From contig NZ_CP117267.1 in assembly GCF_007000325.2 (NCBI RefSeq), positions 2,991,001 through 3,055,000 of the forward strand: DNA of 64,000 nucleotides, given 5' to 3'. Position numbers and translations under genes: made by a program. A model generated the notes under the pieces. That model saw only the letters and a program-made list of their open reading frames with translations, did not search any database and was not told the origin of the DNA. This document shows, piece by piece, positions 5,401 through 43,645 of the stretch; the stretch's first letter is position 1; every line of letters starts with the position of its first letter. The DNA comes from Rhizobium rhododendri (GTDB lineage: Bacteria; Pseudomonadota; Alphaproteobacteria; Rhizobiales; Rhizobiaceae).

Positions 5401-5516
5401 GGTCCGCCATTAACCCAGGCGGCCAAAAGCCCCGAGGTTACATCGATTTAACCCGATTGCAGATCGTTGGCTCTTGTACGCGCGCCTCGAAAGCCTCATA
5501 TTCTCGTCAGGCATGC

Positions 5517-5580
5517 TGGAGCTCCGCAGCGGCGCCCGGGACTGAAGTGCCCGACACCGTCATCCACTCGGAGCTTGAAA
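5517..5580 (+). ncRNA. Structured 5' leader, candidate ybhL-type leader RNA
   Basis: Upstream of the Bax-inhibitor gene, AGCTCCG (5520-5526) can pair with CGGAGCT (5569-5575). Inside this, CGGG (5537-5540) can pair with CCCG (5550-5553). The outer stem ends just before the ribosome binding site. Corbino and co-workers described a conserved RNA motif upstream of ybhL homologues in alphaproteobacteria, and this gene is a ybhL homologue. Whether this sequence matches that motif must be tested with the Rfam covariance model. The boundaries given are approximate. Confidence 0.4.
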
Positions 5581-21090: not shown

Positions 21091-22611
21091 CTATCCGTCG
21101 ATCCCCGCAATCGCCTGGGCGAACTCTTCCGCCTCGAACGGCTCCAGATCGTCCACCCCCTCGCCGACGCCGATGAAATAGACCGGCAGCTTGTGCTTGG
21201 CCGAGATGGCGACAAGAATGCCGCCGCGGGCGGTGCCGTCAAGCTTGGTCATGATAAGACCGTTAACGCCGGCAACATTGCGGAAGATCTCGACCTGGTT
21301 GAGCGCATTCTGGCCGGTCGTCGCATCCAGCGTCTGCAGCACGGTGTGCGGCGCCTCGGGATCAAGCTTGCCGAGCACGCGGACGATCTTTTCGAGCTCG
21401 TCCATCAGCTCCTTCTTGTTCTGCAGCCGGCCGGCAGTGTCGATGATCAAGACGTCGGTGCCATCGGCTTTCGCCTGCTGGAATGCGTCGAATGCGAGAC
21501 CGGAGGCATCGGCACCGATCTTGGTGCCGACAAAGGTCGACTTCGTCCGGTCGGCCCAGATCTTCAGCTGCTCGATGGCTGCGGCGCGGAACGTATCGCC
21601 GGCAGCAACCATCACCTTCAGGCCGGAGCCCGACAGTTTGGACGCCAGCTTGCCGATCGTCGTGGTCTTGCCGGTTCCGTTGACGCCGACCACTAGGATA
21701 ACATGCGGCTTATGGCTGAGGTCGAGCTGCAGGGGCTTGGCCACCGGCTTCAGCACCTTGACGATCTCGGCCGCCATGATGCGGCTGACATCCTCGCCGG
21801 ACACATCCTTGCCGTAGCGCTCCGAGGCCAGCGCATCGGTGATGCGCAAGGCCGTCTCGACGCCGAGATCGGCCTGGATCAGAAGGTCCTCGAGGTCCTG
21901 CAGCGTCTGGTCGTCGAGCTTACGCTTGGTAAACAGCGCCGTGATCTGGCCGGTGAGCTGCGACGAGGTCCGCGACAGGCCTGCACGCAGGCGCTGGAAC
22001 CAGGTGGTCTTCGGGGATTCGGGGACGGGCGCGACGATGGCGGGACCGGTGGAAAAGCCTTTGGGGAGAATGGGAGGGGACGGGATGGTTGGCTGCGACG
22101 CCAGTTCGCCCCCCTCTGCCAGCTTCGCCGACATCTCCCCCACGAGGGGGGATATTGGCGCCGGAGCGGCCTTGGATGTTAAATCAGCCAGGCTGTCGAC
22201 GATTGTCGTCGGAGCCGCGCCACTCTCCGTCTGATCTCCCCCCTTACGGGGGAGATGTCCCGCAGGGACAGAGGGGGGTGTCGCCCCACCCTCGGGAATC
22301 TCAGCCTCGGCTTCGAGCAACGCCAGTGGTGTGACGCCGAGATCGTCCAGCGCAGTGACGACAGGCAGGATCGGCGGCGTATCGTCCTCGGCATCGCCAA
22401 CGATCCCATCGGCCGCAGGCCCACCGGCTGTCTCCATTTCCGCCGGCAAGACCGGATCGGCAGCCTCGGGCAGGTGCTCCTCGCGGCTCTTCGGCTCCAG
22501 CTCTGCGGCAAGACCCTTGTCTTCGTCCGGCAGCAACTCGGCCGGAACCTCGTTGAAGCCCGGCTGGTCGTGGCGGAAGGTGAAGACTTTTTTGATGAAA
22601 CCGATCGCCAT
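21091..22611 (-). CDS. ftsY: Signal recognition particle receptor FtsY
   Basis: The 506-residue protein has an acidic N-terminal A domain and a C-terminal NG GTPase domain with G1 GVNGTGKTTT (near residue 308), DTAGR, TKLDG and GVGEGVDDLEPF. It docks SRP-ribosome complexes at the membrane. The A domain (about residues 112-168) is encoded by an inverted-repeat element like those seen in intergenic regions; it adds a Pro/Gly-rich stretch with SPLVGEMSAKLAEGG. The gene lies 14 bp after mtaB and is part of the dapF-mtaB-ftsY-yciB run. Confidence 0.96.
   Translation of the reverse strand: MAIGFIKKVFTFRHDQPGFNEVPAELLPDEDKGLAAELEPKSREEHLPEAADPVLPAEMETAGGPAADGIVGDAEDDTPPILPVVTALDDLGVTPLALLEAEAEIPEGGATPPSVPAGHLPRKGGDQTESGAAPTTIVDSLADLTSKAAPAPISPLVGEMSAKLAEGGELASQPTIPSPPILPKGFSTGPAIVAPVPESPKTTWFQRLRAGLSRTSSQLTGQITALFTKRKLDDQTLQDLEDLLIQADLGVETALRITDALASERYGKDVSGEDVSRIMAAEIVKVLKPVAKPLQLDLSHKPHVILVVGVNGTGKTTTIGKLASKLSGSGLKVMVAAGDTFRAAAIEQLKIWADRTKSTFVGTKIGADASGLAFDAFQQAKADGTDVLIIDTAGRLQNKKELMDELEKIVRVLGKLDPEAPHTVLQTLDATTGQNALNQVEIFRNVAGVNGLIMTKLDGTARGGILVAISAKHKLPVYFIGVGEGVDDLEPFEAEEFAQAIAGIDG
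22109..22278. repeat. Inverted-repeat (MITE-like) element embedded in the ftsY reading frame
   Basis: Both ends are inverted versions of one about 45-bp sequence. The left end runs CCCCCCTCTG (22109) through ACATCTCCCCC-acga-GGGGGGAT. The right end runs ATCTCCCCC (22234-22242), GGGGGAGAT (22248-22256), GTCCC-gca-GGGAC and AGAGGGGGG (22278). The roughly 80-bp centre has no strong repeat. The whole element is read through by the ftsY frame without a stop. From memory, sequences like these arms are common between genes in rhizobia. Confidence 0.85.
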
Positions 22612-25916: not shown

Positions 25917-26022
25917 CATCTGCGACGAGCTCAAGCCTCCTAGCCGCCGACCGGGACCCCGCAAGGGAATTGGATCCCGGAGGTCAACACCCGACAGCGC
26001 GATGCGCCCTCGGGTGCTTTTT
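25917..26022 (+). ncRNA. Candidate small RNA or ffh leader ending in a terminator
   Basis: Downstream of the promoter-like sequence comes CCTCCT (25936-25941), an anti-Shine-Dalgarno motif in a region with little pairing. A hairpin CCGGGA...TCCCGG (25951-25980) follows, then a terminator-type hairpin CACCCGA/TCGGGTG with inner GCGC/GCGC. The 5' end is inferred from the promoter. The product would be about 105 nt. No open frame fits the interval. The family is unknown to me. Confidence 0.45.
25988..26022 (+). terminator. Rho-independent terminator 110 bp upstream of ffh
   Basis: CACCCGA (25988-25994) pairs with TCGGGTG (26010-26016) around GCGC-GAT-GCGC, followed by CTTTTT. It is well formed, yet it lies on the coding strand just before ffh with no gene ending upstream of it on that strand within 780 bp. 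Confidence 0.75.
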
Positions 26023-26132
26023 GGCTTTGCGTCTTGTTTTCGTCAAGGAAAAGAACAAAGTTTCCGGCCGACGCCGCGCGATGCCCTGAGGCGATATGCG
26101 GTCAAAAAATCGGAAGCGAGAAGGAAGAGCTG

Positions 26133-43570: not shown

Positions 43571-43645
43571 TGGAGCGGGTGAAGCGATTCGAACGCTCGA
43601 CCCCAACCTTGGCAAGGTTGTGCTCTACCCCTGAGCTACACCCGC
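43571..43645 (-). tRNA. tRNA-Gly (GCC anticodon)
   Basis: On the minus strand the 75-nt sequence forms a full cloverleaf: acceptor stem GCGGGTG/CACCCGC, D-arm AGCTCAGGGGTAGAGC, anticodon arm with GCC (43613-43611) flanked by ACCTT and AAGGT, T-arm GGGTCGAGCGTTCGAATCGC-like with TTCGA, and an encoded CCA end. The discriminator base is T. Confidence 0.97.

Follow-up and report, generated by a model that had tools for sequence, protein, structure and literature searches.

A palindromic repeat in frame within FtsY of Rhizobium, with arms that seem to be kept as nucleic acid

How does an inverted repeat come to lie in the open reading frame of an essential protein, FtsY, and is it the encoded peptide or the nucleic acid that has been kept? 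Both questions are raised by a segment of ftsY in Rhizobium rhododendri, which we analyzed within a stretch of 64,000 nucleotides of the chromosome (NZ_CP117267.1, positions 2,991,001 to 3,055,000), referred to here as the window. A first-pass annotation had described the segment as an inverted-repeat element with arms of about 45 bp and an uninterrupted frame, encoding residues ∼112 to 168 of the variable acidic domain, and had proposed mobile repeats as a possible source of new protein sequence.

The element in FtsY and its distribution in Rhizobium

The element is bounded by the outer decamer CCCCCCTCTG at 22109-22118 on the plus strand and its inverted copy at 22269-22278, and further inward the motif GACATCTCCCCC at 22130-22141 (plus strand) recurs as an inverted copy at 22248-22259 (Table 1). 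Within the arms, 22130-22155 and 22234-22259 form an inverted pair of 26 nt each, 85% complementary and separated by 78 nt. The full arms have the size first described (∼45 bp) and are imperfect inverted copies of each other, each with a hairpin of the type ATCTCCCCC...GGGGGAGAT. As a single motif, CCCCCCTCTG is common by chance, with 3 matches at up to one mismatch in the window versus 5.6 expected; GACATCTCCCCC has 2 matches versus 0.55 expected, a count reached by 10 of 100 shuffles. The 177-nt segment folds as RNA of the ftsY strand at −101.9 kcal/mol against a mean of −73.2 kcal/mol (z −6.1), and as DNA of the plus strand with a z-score of −6.6, with 0 of 200 shuffles as good in either case. 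Taken with the 62 arm matches across this genome, these folding scores put the combined motifs far from chance.

The open reading frame that crosses the element without a stop runs from 22611 to 21091 on the minus strand and is FtsY according to Pfam (SRP54, 5.6e-71; SRP54_N, 1e-10), and residues 112 to 168 were assigned to the element from the coordinates. An FtsY that is 100% identical is found at the named locus of Rhizobium sp. L51/94. On sequence grounds, the segment is confirmed as a two-arm palindromic element that lies in frame in the variable acidic domain of FtsY, in agreement with the first description. The predicted FtsY structure is poor throughout (mean pLDDT of 46, from 20 sequences, with residues 1 to 205 under 50), so that it does no more than fail to contradict disorder. 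Rfam yields no match to the element, whether in the window at the gathering threshold or in seven loci at an E value of 0.1. Rfam matches elsewhere in the window are a ybhL leader (5508-5578), the ffh (SRP) RNA (25973-26024) and a tRNA (43574-43645).

Table 1. Positions of ftsY and of the parts of its palindromic element within the window.
Feature	Position	Strand	Evidence or remark
ftsY (host gene of the element), 506 aa	21091..22611	−	ORF, Pfam, orthologues in 148/148 Rhizobium genomes searched
Whole palindromic element (type A), FtsY residues 112-168	22109..22278		Outer inverted decamers, folding z-scores, arm matches in the genome
Arm on the 5' side of the mRNA (FtsY left arm PPSVPAGHLPRKGGD)	22234..22278; hairpin 1, 22234-22256		
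Spacer between the arms, sequence drifts	22156..22233		Codon-position differences in 101 orthologues
Arm on the 3' side of the mRNA (FtsY right arm ISPLVGEMSAKLAEGG)	22109..22155; hairpin 1, 22133-22155		
Right-arm hairpin 2	Between hairpin 1 and the outer decamer		Has locus- and clade-specific variants

The ftsY loci of 147 Rhizobium genomes were fetched (all but G075), of which 144 remained after three without the N-terminal anchor were set aside. From the start to the NG domain, the frame is open in 138 of these and broken in six (G007, G066, G073, G123, G151 and G162). At least three of these breaks (those of G007, G066 and G123) begin within the left arm's run of G. Given that five of the six genomes are few-contig assemblies or carry the second family described below, sequencing error, slippage and phase variation are indistinguishable here.

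Two of the 138 open loci were dropped for N, and the remaining 136 sequences were aligned and assigned to states by an automatic pattern followed by inspection by eye (which placed 15 rows in type A and 17 in none). The type A element, eroded in some cases, is present in 101 sequences, a second palindrome family occupies the same place in 18 (including G017, G065 and G089), and 17 contain neither, showing that the element is not needed. Some of the latter, such as G110, G137 and G166, may be eroded copies. In 16 outgroup loci (L081 to L095 and L114), which include Agrobacterium vitis, Martelella, Peteryoungia and Ferirhizobium, we found neither the arm peptide nor the exact arm motif, so that either FtsY gained the element within the Rhizobium lineage or lineages outside it lost the element. 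The segment could in principle have been an ordinary part of all related FtsY proteins with normal synonymous and nonsynonymous variation, as the first-pass annotation had pointed out; these absences, together with the nearly frozen synonymous sites of the arms described below, speak against it. A recent capture in one strain was also considered and rejected, the element being genus-wide in FtsY and old. Type A and the second family change places at least 17 times on the NG gene tree (119 rows), which suggests allele exchange or repeated insertion. In FtsY of Pararhizobium capsulatum (P0109), the arm peptides occur in swapped order, with the right type first.

Copies elsewhere in the genome and in other proteins

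Had the arms occurred nowhere else, the idea of a repeat family would have fallen; instead, they have 62 matches in the genome of the window (G000), the ftsY segment included (from 47 first-look candidates, of which 40 were scored). Gene context was assigned by a gene finder that relies on codon usage, trained on 42 of the window's ORFs, which placed 13 of 15 loci between genes, the exceptions lying in cobN and uvrB. Three more intergenic places, one more in cobN, and ftsY itself bring the total examined to 20, with 16 intergenic and 4 genic places (ftsY, cobN twice and uvrB); three loci with a predicted gene start near or inside the arms (L119, L130 and L362) were left out of the genic count. 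Two-arm copies span 125 to 210 bp, and the build of the family comprises the outer decamers and two hairpins per arm, of which hairpin 1 is the larger and hairpin 2 is small. Another genome, G020, has 70 arm matches, and among its 19 complete copies the agreement per ten bases is.85 to 1.00 in the arms, except for one right-hand hairpin-2 window at.71, and.35 to.65 in the spacer. Arm matches also occur in 89 plasmid records, mostly of Rhizobium (36) and Sinorhizobium (26) but also of Shinella, Phyllobacterium, and others. A 43-base arm match lies on a plasmid of Deinococcus psychrotolerans (H40, NZ_CP034185.1), the only non-rhizobial genus among the matches listed. At L003:995-1323, just upstream of an intergenic element, there is a match to the cspA thermoregulator that scores 57.6 bits, short of the gathering threshold of 78 bits (E value of 1.7e-12).

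Two possible origins of the family were rejected. The cobN element has no match in 50,697 phage records, which argues against a phage origin. A REP driven by a RAYT is contradicted by the absence of a Y1 transposase in three of four genomes tested (G000, G015 and G009); G020 has one Y1_Tnp match, and no arms occur in the surrounding sequence fetched, 3354 bases in all. Y1_Tnp was the sole transposase type searched, and of 14 genomes used as controls the search was positive in 5. When occupied cobN sites were compared with empty ones, the flanks proved strongly diverged, some empty sites were deletions, and no target-site duplication was established.

CobN (cobaltochelatase) of the window's genome contains a complete element in frame. 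The protein was found in 80 of 80 Rhizobium genomes, and the query aligns through the insert unbroken in 45 of them and splits there in the rest. In the solved CobN structure 9uk9, the flanks of the insert align to residues 640 to 744 and 746 to 852 with nothing lost; since the flanks adjoin, the insert occupies a seamless site. From the 80 genomes, we took a close look at 70 cobN loci (the 30 best and 40 hand-picked), three of which (L208, L221 and L236) were left unparsed and viewed separately. Among the 67 parsed loci, 31 are of type A, 18 of type B, 2 of type C, 14 empty or short, and 2 remnants, counts that are no random sample because of the hand-picked loci. Types B and C are different palindromes, likewise with inverted arms, and at least three families therefore occupy this one site in different species, usually in frame. 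Several of the empty sites resemble deletions within the element (for example, L217 versus L154 and L207 versus L171), and split or interrupted cobN frames occur in at least 3 of the 80 loci (G016, G073 and G098). A second in-frame CobN site lies in the N-terminal part, after GIWWPG, with a full element in L357, L358, and L359; in the window's genome, what remains there is one arm (L370, near position 552).

The UvrB tail of the window's genome carries a single arm, and among 30 UvrB loci sorted by eye, 9 have type A arms, 8 B-like, 5 C-like, 4 other kinds and 4 none. The non-A kinds of UvrB and some of the cobN families were separated by peptide and by eye; for the second family of FtsY and for types B and C of cobN, the palindromic DNA itself was examined. 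A complete in-frame type A element is also present in RibD of two relatives (G070, L365:51-1367; G023, L366:396-1688), where it divides the RibD_C Pfam match into two. As far as sequence comparison can tell, these loci show that FtsY, two CobN sites, the UvrB tail, and RibD bear insertions of palindromic repeats in their putatively translated frames, and that the same protein sites are used by different palindrome families in different species.

Codon-position differences and hairpin structure of the arms

A selected peptide would differ most at third codon positions. In the FtsY left arm (101 genomes), differences at codon positions 1, 2 and 3 are.172,.167 and.130, versus.456,.459 and.594 in the spacer of the 101 orthologues,.309,.277 and.523 and.184,.156 and.396 in the two flanks, and.041,.014 and.297 in the NG domain. 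A subset of 36 related FtsY sequences gives.105,.089 and.061 in the arm versus.029,.004 and.240 in NG, with third positions elsewhere in the gene at.240 to.335 and in the spacer at.502. The same holds for nine CobN type A orthologues with alignable, homologous spacers, whose arms differ by.115,.073 and.103 and by.039,.026 and.088, against.308,.290 and.423 in the spacer and third-position values of.312 and.424 in the flanks. At third positions, the arms of CobN type B (n = 14) differ by.060 and.024, versus.297 and.403, and those of the second FtsY family (n = 18) by.026 and.052, versus.218 in NG and.322 and.441 in the flanks. Across these four data sets, from two genes and three families, arm third positions are thus about 2 to 17 times less different than those of the surrounding gene. 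Since they differ least or about equally, it is the nucleotides rather than the peptide that appear to be kept.

Four-fold sites point the same way. When rows are selected by protein only (94 of 136), third bases are identical at.917 and.827 in the two arms versus.655 in NG, an excess with bootstrap intervals of.233 to.293 and.150 to.197. Given that 16-codon NG windows all lie at or below.822, the right arm by itself comes close to the most that ordinary sequence shows, and the left arm exceeds it. A codon table of the left arm was drawn from 71 orthologues keeping at least three of four DNA submotifs; as choosing rows by DNA motif is biased, the conservation figures are based on protein-chosen or hand-curated rows. 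FtsY loops vary more than stems (0.317 and 0.235 versus 0.08 to 0.15), and in some lineages the arms are eroded. Altogether, what seems to be maintained in the arms is the nucleic acid and not the peptide, as spacer and flanks diverge. The earlier proposal of a mobile repeat supplying new protein sequence thus survives in part: the spacer supplies freely evolving sequence, but the arms are passive, and mobility finds no support in either a target-site duplication or a transposase link.

The two hairpins behave differently. Among 21 left arms of G020, hairpin 2 has A-U as its middle pair in 10, G-C in 6 and C-G in 5, paired in every arm, whereas hairpin 1 is nearly invariant. The covariation score of hairpin 2 and its number of cells changed on both sides beat all 500 shuffles; two of the five measures (pairs changed on both sides and further pair types) stay within the shuffles because just one pair varies much. 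Departures in FtsY hairpin 1 comprise 66 unpaired, 20 one-sided and 0 compensated in the right arm and 81, 20 and 12, respectively, in the left; being mostly unpaired, they indicate that pairing itself is not strictly kept there. Hairpin 1 therefore looks to be kept as sequence and hairpin 2 as structure. A T-A to C-G exchange in FtsY hairpin 2 divides 64 rows into 34 and 29, with 1 mixed, and corresponds to only two to three changes on the tree (sign test, p 0.5).

Individual loci have their own hairpin-2 variants, retained across whole clades. The CobN right-arm variant GTCAGCGAAGCTGACA, or a one-base version of it, is present in 7 of 9 orthologues of one clade, the pattern having missed the other two, and the FtsY variant TCCGACAGGAC in 23 of the 36 related sequences (11 have other variants and 2 were unmatched). 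Within G020, for which 30 loci were fetched, the CobN variant is confined to its own locus, and 0 of the 30 have the FtsY variant.

Explanations and relation to known repeats

We consider it probable that the ftsY segment is a rhizobial two-arm palindromic repeat in frame in a disordered acidic domain, with arms held by a DNA or RNA constraint and a passive peptide. Under this reading, palindromic copies would arrive by some non-autonomous route, and those that are out of frame or harmful in genes would be purged. Surviving genic copies would sit in disordered or inter-domain linkers, where their peptide would be tolerated and remain passive. A constraint on DNA or RNA would hold the arms, most simply if a host or element-related factor recognizes the arm sequence, and arms would occasionally be lost through deletions between them. 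A further proposal, to which we give rather less than even weight, is that the arms are active sequence- and structure-specific sites, selected as nucleic acid within conserved genes, and that a few permissive protein sites have served as landing places for several families across the genus.

Selection for arm recognition seems likelier to us than gene conversion. Under conversion, genic arms would be frozen by repeated overwriting from near-identical arms in the genome, and no function would be needed. Dozens of donor arms per genome (in both G000 and G020) and the close agreement of arms but not spacers among the 19 complete G020 copies fit such a process. We nevertheless think it unlikely, given that hairpin-2 variants stay with their locus over clades and are absent from the other fetched copies of the same genome, where whole-arm conversion would have mixed them; short tracts over hairpin 1 alone, or over hairpin 1 and the outer decamer, are possible. 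The arms could also look conserved merely because they are recent, through recurrent young insertions at the same sites, and both the sharing of the cobN, ftsY, and uvrB sites by different families and the repeated alternation of the two FtsY families agree with that. However, within the cobN and ftsY groups the spacers are homologous and have diverged at third positions about as much as their flanks, implying that those copies predate the splits, and the 17 FtsY changes could also come from recombination of ftsY alleles, which makes this explanation improbable.

Template-switch correction within palindromes is a mutational mechanism, and such a bias alone might keep arms self-complementary. 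It would account for a hairpin-2 middle pair that changes on both sides and for FtsY loops that are more variable than stems. Yet hairpin 1 keeps one sequence instead of swapping pairs, and in FtsY it is more often broken than compensated, so that we regard this bias as a very improbable sole cause. Least credible of all is selection on the peptide, in which FtsY would have gained a useful segment and the conservation would be that of a protein motif. The frame is indeed kept in 138 of 144 ftsY loci, but departures from the FtsY arm consensus are about equal over codon positions 1, 2 and 3 (159, 139 and 103), with the fewest at the third, the left arms of cobN and ftsY do not all share one reading frame, and other families at the same sites encode other peptides.

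If selection is the cause, the elements would function in DNA or RNA, which an arm-binding factor could reveal, and this would also help to explain what the intergenic repeats of rhizobia do, a long-standing question. In-frame palindromes are usually seen as selfish DNA that is tolerated and decays; here, the amino acids and the spacer drift while the arm nucleotides stay. If the arms are selected as nucleic acid, a stretch of FtsY, CobN, and UvrB would owe its sequence to a function in DNA or RNA instead of to the protein. Repeat families can reshape the linkers of conserved proteins across a whole genus, and a peptide of a disordered region can look conserved and yet be a by-product of a repeat, which calls for caution.

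The element may resemble RIME1, a member of the repeats defined by Osteras in 1995. In the accessible part of one source, RIME1 and RIME2 (Rhizobium-specific intergenic mosaic elements) are repeated, of conserved structure and unknown function, and described as intergenic (PMC2573895). They share with our element the character of a many-copy rhizobial palindromic repeat but, by their description, differ in that the latter is genic at 4 of 20 places. Rhizobial repeats are treated as intergenic in the portions of the literature available to us, and our searches of the open-access literature gave no report of translated palindromes in rhizobia.

The likeness to the in-frame palindromic elements of Rickettsia, first suggested from the ftsY sequence, is borne out by the joint occurrence of intergenic and in-frame genic copies. 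Palindromic elements of Rickettsia and Wolbachia, according to the parts of two papers available to us, are ∼150 bp long, occur outside as well as within genes, and extend the reading frames of proteins that are unrelated (PMC10969869, PMC3733652); in rhizobia, too, a repeated palindrome is both intergenic and in frame inside unrelated genes (FtsY, CobN and UvrB, and RibD in relatives). The Rickettsia elements belong to another bacterial order and presumably have other sequences. They are also reported, in the available part of a paper citing Claverie and Ogata 2003, to lose repeat identity over time (PMC6649704), opposite to the rhizobial genic arms with their nearly frozen third positions.

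Other repeats share single features. GTAG- and CGTC-tagged REPs with a RAYT are palindromes, some within genes, but the rhizobial elements are longer, have two arms, and occur with no Y1 transposase in most genomes tested, that of the window included. Two insertions inside uvrB of R. conorii, and different REPs near the same recB site in two Xanthomonas species, are mentioned in the accessible part of PMC3733652. The terminal inverted repeats, here the CCCCCCTCTG ends, recall MITEs. MITE-like repeats with open frames, fused to genes, are the enterobacterial RU-1, RU-2 and RU-3 (PMC2759123) and the Coxiella QMITEs (PMC5896051); the available parts of those papers describe neither the reuse of one site by several families nor arm conservation at synonymous sites. 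The element is of a known sort, a protein-coding palindromic repeat, in a new bacterial group; what distinguishes it from known in-frame palindromes is that several families reuse protein sites and that the arms seem to be kept as nucleic acid within genes.

In FtsY of G132, G145, and G074 and in the UvrB loci L182, L185, L193, and L194, the arms of other palindromes harbor an additional small palindrome, nested within them in frame.
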